Assembly: GCF_007752345.1 (NCBI RefSeq)
Contig: NZ_CP036299.1
Coordinates: 2,557,001 to 2,621,000, forward strand
Origin: Planctopirus ephydatiae
GTDB taxonomy: Bacteria; Planctomycetota; Planctomycetia; Planctomycetales; Planctomycetaceae
Direction of reading: 5' to 3'
Length of the DNA stretch: 64,000 nt
Positions 12,084-14,664 of this stretch are shown here, one piece after another. The notes beneath the pieces were generated by a model, which had not been told where the DNA came from, searched no databases, and was given only the letters and a program-made list of their open reading frames with translations. The translations under genes were made by a program, and so were the position numbers. The number at the start of each line of letters is the position of its first letter. Positions within the stretch are counted from its first letter, which is position 1.

Positions 12084-12542
12084 TCACGAGGCCACGGTAA
12101 TCGACTTAACCTCAAACATAGGAAGGAGATTCGTCAATCGAAGCGACTGCTGAATGTCATCGCTCGGGTTGTAAAGTTCGATCCTGTCAACCTGCTTTCG
12201 CAGGGTTGTGAGCAAGCCGAGCATGCCACTGGGCATTAATTTGACGCCACTGCAGTCAAATGCGAGGACTGAACAAGTGTTGTCTTCGAGGAGTTTTCGC
12301 AATTGCTCGCGATAGGAAGCAATGCAGAATTCATCGGGAACATCCTGCCCGCCAAAGCCCACCACCGTCAAAGCCCCGGTCTGATAGACCTGGAGGACGT
12401 CATTTCGGACGGCCGGTTTTTGACGTGGTTTGGATTGTGGGCAGGCAGTGTCTCCATCATCAAAGATACTGCCAGTGTTTGGACTTGCATCTGATGCTTT
12501 TTCGCTGTGCGAATCACCAGGAAGATCTGCCGTATCTGCCAT
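12084..12542 (-). CDS. STAS-domain protein (anti-sigma factor antagonist-like)
   Basis: A cytoplasmic protein of 152 residues. The first 45 are acidic, serine-rich and probably disordered. A STAS domain fills about 48-150. The characteristic strand-turn-helix reads VLAFDCSGVKLMPSGMLGLL (92-111). Ser105 sits where anti-sigma antagonists are phosphorylated, although the usual D-SSG is MPSG here. Such domains bind anti-sigma kinases or act as signalling adaptors, but no kinase or sigma gene is adjacent. ATG 12542 is preceded by CTGGAG. It lies 221 bases downstream of flhB on the same strand. A 6-bp hairpin (12080-12095) overlaps the stop codon. Confidence 0.8.
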   Translation of the reverse strand: MADTADLPGDSHSEKASDASPNTGSIFDDGDTACPQSKPRQKPAVRNDVLQVYQTGALTVVGFGGQDVPDEFCIASYREQLRKLLEDNTCSVLAFDCSGVKLMPSGMLGLLTTLRKQVDRIELYNPSDDIQQSLRLTNLLPMFEVKSITVAS

Positions 12543-12763
12543 TTCGGAGTCTCCAGAAAACTTAGGGACTCAAACTTGCCTGCCCAAATCCATTTGTTGG
12601 ATGATCAGTAAACACTCTCGATCAATCCAGACAACATCGTGCCAATCCAACCTGACAACCGCAAGCAGTTGTTCACCTTTCTGCTGATGAAATCTGTAAA
12701 CATTGAGGTTTGAGCATCTTCGATCAAGAATGTTCATTTCTCGCCCAGAAACGACCCGGGGCC

Positions 12764-13846
12764 TTACCTGAGGTTTCGAGGAGGCTTTCGACCGGTGATT
12801 TTGTAAACGTATGCAAGAATTTCTGCGAAGACAGCGTAGAGGTCTGAAGGGATGGGGTCACCCACTCGCGTGAGTTTGTAAAGCGCCCGGGCGACAGGTT
12901 TTCGTTCAATAATTGGAACGCCGTTCTCTGCTGCCAGCCGTCGAATCTGGGCTGCCAATTCTCCCGCTCCTTTGGCGACAACAATCGGTGCAGGCATCGT
13001 GGCGACGTCATATTTGATCGCAATAGCAATTTCTGTTGGGTTAGTGATGACGACATCGGCCGTCTTGACTGACTGAAGTTCACGCCCTTGAGTCAATTTG
13101 CGATGCGCTTCGCGCCGGCGCATGCGAATCAAAGGATCGCCGTCCATCTCCTTGTATTCGTCCCGGATTTCCTGCTTACTCATCTTCAGATCCTGCTCAT
13201 ACTTCCACCACTGAAAGGCAAAATCAGCGAGAGCAGCGACGAAGATCGCCAAAGCCATCCAGAAAATGAGAGAGATCAGTTCTGAGCCAGCCACCACAGC
13301 GACGACTGTCAAAGGTTGATGTGCCAGGGCGGCAAACCGGTGTAACCCGTCGTATACAAACCAGGTCGCCACAGACCCCAGTAACACCAGTTTTGCCAGA
13401 TTTGCACCCAGCCGAGCGACCGAAGAAATCGAGAATAACCGCTGAATTCCCGAGAGCGGATTGATCCTCTCCCATTTGGGCTGAAGCACTTCGGGTGAAA
13501 ACAAAAATCCGACTTGCAGGAGATTAATTGCAATCGCAGCCAGAGCCAGCAGTATGAGTAGTGGCGCTACCTGCCAGCCCGATTCGCCCAGGTGCGCCCA
13601 TGCCAGAGAGACAAGATCATTCTGGTCAAACGTCGTCCAGGGAGCTGCGGAAAGGCTGTTTCTCATCAAGCGGGCCATGTATTCGGCCACATTCCGACCA
13701 TGCCACCAGAGAACTCCCGCAGAGCCAAGCATTAAGGCTGCTGCCGTGAGATCCTGGCTTTTGACGACATTTCCCTGCTCGCGCGCTTCGCTACGCCTGC
13801 GCTCGGTCGGGTCTTCGGTTTTGTCGCCGGATTCATCTTCGGCCAT
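12764..13846 (-). CDS. flhB: Flagellar export-gate protein FlhB
   Basis: Inner-membrane component of the flagellar type III export apparatus that switches substrate specificity after self-cleavage. The 360 residues show the FlhB layout: an N-terminal charged segment with KTEDPTERRRSEAREQGNV (9-27), four membrane helices (about 33-50, 93-113, 145-165, 186-208), a linker with KMSKQEIRDEYKEMDGDP (221-238), and the cytoplasmic domain from 255. The cleavage motif reads NPTE (269-272) instead of the usual NPTH; the cleavable Asn-Pro is kept. ATG 13846 is preceded by AGGAGGTG. The GTG at 13858 lies inside that ribosome binding site and was rejected. It might be the paralogous EscU, but no other secretion genes are in the window, so the name rests on overall likeness. 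Confidence 0.9.
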   Translation of the reverse strand: MAEDESGDKTEDPTERRRSEAREQGNVVKSQDLTAAALMLGSAGVLWWHGRNVAEYMARLMRNSLSAAPWTTFDQNDLVSLAWAHLGESGWQVAPLLILLALAAIAINLLQVGFLFSPEVLQPKWERINPLSGIQRLFSISSVARLGANLAKLVLLGSVATWFVYDGLHRFAALAHQPLTVVAVVAGSELISLIFWMALAIFVAALADFAFQWWKYEQDLKMSKQEIRDEYKEMDGDPLIRMRRREAHRKLTQGRELQSVKTADVVITNPTEIAIAIKYDVATMPAPIVVAKGAGELAAQIRRLAAENGVPIIERKPVARALYKLTRVGDPIPSDLYAVFAEILAYVYKITGRKPPRNLR

Positions 13847-13980
13847 GGCCTGAGGCACCTCCTGTCGAGGTGATCATGCCAAACAAAGGGTGTTTCCAGA
13901 AAGATCAGTTTATTGATCCAATTCCGGGAGGTTAGGGCAGCAAATCAATTCGGGAAAATTCGTCCCAAATTTGGAAGAGA

Positions 13981-14664
13981 TCACTCGTGTGGCAATTTAC
14001 CCAGATTCTCATTCGCTCCAATCAGCATGAGAATATCCTGCTCTTCGATGACTTCATCGGGTTGTGGCACGCCGATCATTTTCCGAGTCTCTTCGAGTTC
14101 GCTCCCTGCCGGGGCTGGGATTGACCGACGGATGGCGACCAGATTGACGCCATATTTCGCTCGCAGATTCAGCTCGCGAAGTGTCTTGCCACGAAAAGCA
14201 CTGGGGGCTCTCAATTCAATCAGCGTGTAACCTTCACCCAGATCGACGAAATCCTCGAGTGAAGGGTTGGCCAGCCTTCTGGCCAGTGCAATGCCAGCTT
14301 CCGATTCGGGCTGAATCACTTCGTCGGCACCGATCTTGAGAAAAATCTGTGCATGCATCGAAGTGGTGGCTCGCACAATCACCTTGGGAATGCCCAGTTT
14401 TTTGGCCAGCACCGCCGTCAGAAGTGCTGCCTCAAAATTCTCGCCAATCGCCACAACCAGATAATCACATTTGTGAACGTCCTGGCCCCTCAAGGCCCGT
14501 TCATCGGTGGCGTCGAGCACAACAGCCACATCGACCAGATCCTTGACATCAGCCACCGCATCTGCCGAAGTATCGATGGCAATCACTTGCGCCCGCGTCG
14601 AGGCCAGTTGCTCGATGACAGCGATTCCAAATCGACCAAGACCAACAATCGCGACTCTTTGCAC
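13981..14664 (-). CDS. KtrA/TrkA-type potassium-channel regulatory subunit
   Basis: A cytoplasmic RCK protein of 227 residues that should gate a potassium uptake channel by binding nucleotide. The RCK_N Rossmann half has GLGRFG (8-13) with the strand-2 acid at Asp31, then DATDERAL and YLVVAIGENFEAALLTAV. The RCK_C half runs from about 140 to the end, with the typical ELRAPSAFRGKTLREL segment and DILMLIG. A single RCK unit means the KtrA type rather than the duplicated TrkA. The start is GTG 14664, preceded by GGGGAACAGG. No KtrB/TrkH membrane partner is adjacent. It is followed 134 bases on by flhB, a pairing that need not be functional. Confidence 0.9.
   Translation of the reverse strand: MQRVAIVGLGRFGIAVIEQLASTRAQVIAIDTSADAVADVKDLVDVAVVLDATDERALRGQDVHKCDYLVVAIGENFEAALLTAVLAKKLGIPKVIVRATTSMHAQIFLKIGADEVIQPESEAGIALARRLANPSLEDFVDLGEGYTLIELRAPSAFRGKTLRELNLRAKYGVNLVAIRRSIPAPAGSELEETRKMIGVPQPDEVIEEQDILMLIGANENLGKLPHE

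Follow-up and report, generated by a model that had tools for sequence, protein, structure and literature searches.

The flhB gene of the window, the 64,000-nucleotide stretch of Planctopirus ephydatiae DNA analysed here, encodes NPTE at the self-cleavage site, where NPTH has been stated to be present in all family members (PMC4875606). This raises the question of whether an FlhB with Glu in place of the His is still a working, self-cleaving switch protein of the flagellum. The first-pass annotation had proposed that cleavage rate or substrate switching could differ. We compared the protein with its relatives in the phylum, with the flagellar gene content of their genomes, and with published mutants.

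FlhB of the window

The following features were assigned on the minus strand of the window.

12764-13846, minus strand: flhB, flagellar export gate and substrate-specificity switch protein (TIGR00328, 360.7 bits; PF01312, 400 bits)
13031-13042, minus strand: self-cleavage motif NPTE, N269-P270-T271-E272 in numbering from the ATG (codons AAC CCA ACA GAA)
13042-13040 and 13039-13037, minus strand: codons flanking the predicted scissile bond between N269 and P270
12767-13210, minus strand: cytoplasmic switch domain FlhB-C, about residues 213-360 (AlphaFold2 model, VIA-align, and sequence conservation with L018)

Translated from the ATG, the product has 360 residues and begins MAEDESGDKTE. This start is more likely than an in-frame GTG (12764-13858), which is also possible. 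The score against TIGR00328, the FlhB equivalog model, is above the curated cut-off of 349.25. The injectisome switch SctU/EscU (TIGR01404) was rejected, with 309.5 bits against a cut-off of 358. PF01312 matched residues 12-351 over model positions 2-335 of 335, and this was the only PF01312 match in the genome. The AlphaFold2 model of residues 219-360 had a mean pLDDT of 86.8, and VIA-align aligned it with a Z of about 17 to the C domains of EscU, CT091, and Shewanella FlhB (for Shewanella FlhB 6z0w, Z 17.1 over 102 residues with rmsd 1.6). The protein is thus predicted to be a membrane part followed by a cytoplasmic switch domain with the EscU/FlhB fold. Its C domain has no amino-acid differences from that of L018 at a synonymous divergence of 0.28. 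The codons read on the minus strand from 13042 to 13031 bear out the earlier reading of NPTE at residues 269-272, followed by IAIAIKYD, with the scissile Asn-Pro pair kept.

Outside the flhB locus, the window's genome (G000) contains matches to Flagellin_N (2), the FliK C-domain, FlhA, rod/hook domains (5), and FliF. A STAS-domain gene and a TrkA-domain gene lie on either side of flhB (window 12084-14664). The FliK match is 2.2 Mb away from flhB in this genome; it is about 10 kb away, on the same contig, in the relatives G018, G023, G050, and G097.

NPTE among planctomycetes and other bacteria

FlhB typing covered 101 genomes from the window's family, and a genome with any Asn-Pro FlhB was typed by that copy. 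NPTE was found in 13 genomes, NPTH in 51, and NPTR or NPVH in 3; Asn-Pro was lost in 4, the FlhB match was confined to the membrane part in 19, fragments were found in 2, and 9 had no match. In a phylum sample of 392 genomes, the NPTE DNA pattern gave 28 matches in 27 genomes. Three of these (L111, L113, L123) were not FlhB and were dropped. The other 25 matches were within FlhB and came from 25 genomes in 13 families, a lower bound since the pattern demands I, L, V, M, or F after the Glu. The NPTH DNA pattern matched 151 of the 392 genomes; these matches were confirmed as FlhB for the 30 loci retrieved, and the rest are pattern matches only.

A tree of 135 FlhB rows contained 37 NPTE rows, among which the window's gene stands twice (win, L125), and 87 NPTH rows. 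Glu and His interchanged at least nine times on this tree. There were eight such changes on a careful tree of 62 rows, which included two supported mixed sister pairs (L034/L014, 100/91; L103/L131, 100/98). Both trees were built without the site columns, and membrane-part-only (TM-only) rows, fragments, and the duplicates L001, L002, L124, and L126 were left out; L125 was kept in the 135-row tree. Independent E/H contrasts on strongly supported branches number at most three. Other FlhB variants that keep Asn-Pro are NPTY, NPVH, NPTR, and NPDH. NPTY or NPTR is found in L004 from Chitinispirillaceae and in L035 and L072 from the window's family.

Judged from these sequences, NPTE is old and recurrent in planctomycetes with flagellar genes. 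Since 37 of the 135 tree rows are NPTE, the His does not appear to be a family-defining residue of FlhB in this phylum. The earlier claim that the His is nearly universal therefore failed inside Planctomycetota. It stood outside the phylum, in a small sample of 9 loci and 12 plasmid-borne genes picked to avoid the plasmids of pathogens. The fourth motif position was His in eight and Tyr in one of the nine loci not labelled planctomycete (two of them labelled only 'bacterium'). The 12 plasmid-borne FlhB/SctU genes, out of 443 matching records, had NPTH in nine and no Asn-Pro in three. None of these loci and plasmid-borne genes had Glu at this position. The three without Asn-Pro are SctU-type proteins from Bradyrhizobium, Sinorhizobium, and Paracoccus (L188, L189, L190) with TGPAM, RGTAV, and RAGTR at the cut site; because the Asn-Pro pair is absent, they are probably unable to self-cleave there.

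Co-occurrence with flagellar genes

Among the 101 family genomes, flagellin was found in all 13 NPTE and all 51 NPTH genomes, and NPTE was confined to flagellin-bearing genomes. A FliK domain was present in 12 of the 13 and 48 of the 51, respectively, where presence includes matches under the Pfam cut-off at E<=0.001 (G064, G092, G063). The one NPTE genome with no FliK match (G045) is 89% complete. FlhA was present in all 13 NPTE genomes. In G067 (NPVH, flagellin present), no FlhA match was found.

The 23 genomes whose FlhB lacks Asn-Pro or the switch domain are different, with flagellin absent from 21 and FliK absent from 22. The association of flagellin with Asn-Pro kept versus lost had a Fisher p of about 1.5e-18, not corrected for kinship. 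Likewise, Asn-Pro was missing in four of the 135 tree rows, all from genomes with no flagellin match. The exceptions to the association are G083 and G010, which have a TM-only FlhB and flagellin. In G083, contig C53 carries flagellin, FliK, and rod/hook matches together with a second, far better-scoring FliF, which points either to a second flagellar cluster or to a contig of foreign origin.

Selection on the switch domain

The dN/dS of the C domain was 0-0.14 in nine NPTE pairs, several of which have a synonymous divergence above 1, and 0.02-0.05 in four NPTH pairs. A tenth NPTE pair (L117/L118) was saturated in the C domain and gave no value. These sequence comparisons indicate that purifying selection acts on the NPTE switch domain, with a constraint like that of its NPTH relatives, which speaks for function rather than for cleavage. 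Among proteins that have lost Asn-Pro, the sole measurable pair (L089/L090) had a dN/dS of 0.37 in the C domain versus 0.12 in the membrane part; L091/L090 was saturated in the C domain.

One further row, L082 (NGAD, from a genome with no flagellin match), is sister to the NPTE row L047 (100/95). Between these two, pN was 0.36 in the C domain and 0.33 in the membrane part, and between the NPTE rows L047 and L021 it was 0.19 and 0.32, respectively. Divergence of the C domain kept pace with that of the membrane part in the pair with the lost site and fell short of it in the NPTE pair, a third indirect sign, after the flagellar gene content and the dN/dS values, that an NPTE FlhB still works. By dN/dS, no relaxation was apparent in L047/L082, whose C domain gave 0.175 and membrane part 0.179, with both values close to saturation.

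Role of the residue after Asn-Pro-Thr

For HrcU of Xanthomonas, PMC3040844 reports that mutating T266 or H267 (H267A) has only a slight effect on cleavage and that N264A abolishes detectable cleavage. In the PDB, EscU H265A (3bzx), like native EscU, is present as two pieces of 54 and 83 residues divided at the cut site. The entries for EscU N262A, N262D, and P263A have 137-residue chains, and 3c03 (P263A) also has split chains. The FlhB chains of 8z5s, 6s3l, and 12du read NPEH as deposited. By analogy, the HrcU and EscU mutants show that the His should not be essential for cleavage in FlhB. In Spa40, the P-T-H loop is described as surface-exposed once cleaved (PMC2615192). Because the mutants still cut and this loop is exposed, the His probably serves in surface contact or in fine tuning, and Glu would be sufficient for either. 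The open-access literature searched contained no paper naming both NPTE and FlhB, both H265A and EscU, or both H272A and FlhB, and no assay of any NPTE FlhB was found there.

We hold with good confidence that the window encodes a working, self-cleaving flagellar FlhB in which the His is replaceable. This reading is based on sequence, family assignment, recurrence of NPTE, co-occurrence with flagellin and FliK, and purifying selection; from these we infer that an NPTE FlhB is cleaved, when it is cleaved, and which partners it contacts. Asn269 would cyclise on its own backbone and the Asn-Pro bond would break, as in other FlhB/SctU proteins. The cutting chemistry would rely on the Asn, the Pro, and the tight turn, and the His side chain would be dispensable. 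After the cut, the P-T-E loop would swing out into a surface that FliK or the substrates may meet. Glu could replace His on that surface, and exchange between the two residues has recurred in planctomycetes. The window protein is thus most likely functionally ordinary despite its Glu. The altered cleavage rate or substrate switching proposed earlier found no support, since NPTE is old and recurrent, occurs with flagellin, and is constrained like NPTH relatives. The first-pass annotation had named frequent NPTE among cleaving FlhB homologs as evidence that would refute its claim, and the comparison it suggested did find NPTE to be common among the planctomycete homologs, whose cleavage is predicted.

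It is rather unlikely, though worth considering, that an NPTE FlhB cuts more slowly or with another pH response, so that the hook-to-filament switch comes later or is pH-insensitive. PMC3504009 describes the His of YscU as shared by every known YscU ortholog. It gives this residue a pKa near 6 and attributes pH-dependent dissociation to it; citing Wiesand 2009, it also says that mutation of His266 affects autoproteolysis. Glu is not expected to titrate near pH 6 or to copy His in pH-dependent dissociation. Moreover, in 74 family rows the residue after Glu was always I, L, or F (Y in 0/13), while Y followed His in 21/55; this difference, not corrected for kinship, may reflect a compensating neighbour. 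Independent-pair tests for covariation with the E/H swap had 2-3 supported contrasts among the columns listed, and significance was unreachable. However, flagellin and FliK content showed no visible difference across the repeated swaps of Glu and His, and the slight effect of H267A in HrcU also argues against slower cutting.

Relatives with a switch-less FlhB

The 23 family genomes without Asn-Pro (4) or, by Pfam coverage, without the switch domain (19) show what happens when the site is given up. One example is a 273-aa FlhB with no cut site (L088:2576-3397). In the 19 TM-only genomes, Pfam coverage ends by position 254 of 335, and 10 of the 19 were also read as sequence. The gene is in two pieces in G099, contains an internal stop in G010, and starts at a contig end in G093. 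A weak C-domain-like match stands apart in G072 (positions 233-324 with E 2e-7, within a 954-aa frame at G072:C265:4577-4849), so part of the switch domain may persist there. Short or separate C-domain-like matches with no Asn-Pro motif were also seen in L092, L093, and L094, and we presume that these and the one in G072 are possibly FlhX-type paralogues. The C-domain-like matches in G012 and G014 adjoin a FliK-domain match.

FliF was kept in 22 of the 23 genomes and FlhA in all 20 tested. Rod/hook matches were found in one, where the profile PF00460 has 31 positions and divergent genes could escape it. Two of these genomes, from two genera, have a compact export locus.

L191:5974-14285 (G009): compact type III export locus with FliF-FliG fusion, FliH, FliI, FliN, FliP, FliR, switch-less FlhB, FliQ, and marginal FliO
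L192:4847-13365 (G055): compact type III export locus with FliF-FliG fusion, FliH, FliI, FliN, FliP, FliR, and switch-less FlhB

FliQ and FliO were scored in L191 only, and L192 has masked bases at the expected place of FliQ. Profile searches of G009 and G055 found FlhA and no flagellin, FliK, or rod/hook match. Parallels are the Myxo type III systems without core genes and the non-flagellated Lysobacter, in which flagellar export genes are active in export and twitching (PMC3459982 and PMC7277350, respectively). Among the titles and opening lines of abstracts surveyed, no planctomycete report naming such a compact locus was found.

These relatives bear on the idea that the NPTE FlhB stays uncut and that switching was taken over by another mechanism or given up, which we regard as very improbable. 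Flagellin-less relatives do give up the site, and no cleavage data for planctomycete FlhB were found in the literature searched. However, where the switch is abandoned the Asn-Pro pair goes as well, and in L089/L090 it is the C domain that is relaxed and not the membrane part. NPTE lineages retain both Asn-Pro and constraint, with flagellin in every NPTE genome of the family.

A sequencing or assembly error at 13031-13033 has practically no chance of explaining the Glu: His to Glu takes two base changes and neither Gln nor Asp occurs as an intermediate in 131 Asn-Pro-bearing rows, but two other genomes of the genus (G033 and G095) and 12 other families of the phylum also have NPTE, which excludes the error suspected earlier at about 13030-13042. 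A public MAG contig, L002, also has NPTE and is probably the same assembly as G095. The genus has one more genome, G074 (88% complete), in which no FlhB match was found.

We tentatively extend the reading of a self-cleaving FlhB with a replaceable His to the whole phylum, as a proposal somewhat short of an even chance. The fourth residue of NPTH may be a tunable contact outside the cutting machinery, swapped among E, H, and R in planctomycetes while Asn-Pro stays as long as the flagellum does. In a lineage that has lost filament, hook, and FliK, either the cut site or all of the switch domain would then be dropped. What is left would be a compact type III exporter that has a FliF-FliG fusion and no switch, and planctomycetes would thus offer a natural series of deletions in the FlhB switch. 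That the cut site or the switch domain tends to be lost along with flagellin links self-cleavage to axial assembly and not to export per se. Glu recurs naturally in bacteria with flagellar genes, which suggests that the His is replaceable, against the statements that all members have NPTH, and matched E/H sister proteins are now at hand for probing the role of the residue.

Comparison with known systems

The same His is lost in EscU H265A, which is split into two chains at the cut site in 3bzx, and in Xanthomonas HrcU H267A, with its slightly affected cleavage. Both differ from the window protein in that they are laboratory mutants of injectisome proteins and have Ala, not Glu. The NPEH FlhB chains in the PDB and the NPTY, NPVH, NPTR, and NPDH variants keep Asn-Pro like the window protein and also depart from NPTH, but they differ from it in motif position or in the substituting residue. 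Salmonella FlhB is the flagellar switch with NPTH, cut between Asn269 and Pro270 (PMC3640470). The window protein has Glu in place of His at the fourth motif position, and its cleavage is predicted. The two proteins are alike in family model, domain order, and the residue numbers of the Asn and Pro, and the window's genome resembles the Salmonella FlhB system in having flagellin and FliK domains.
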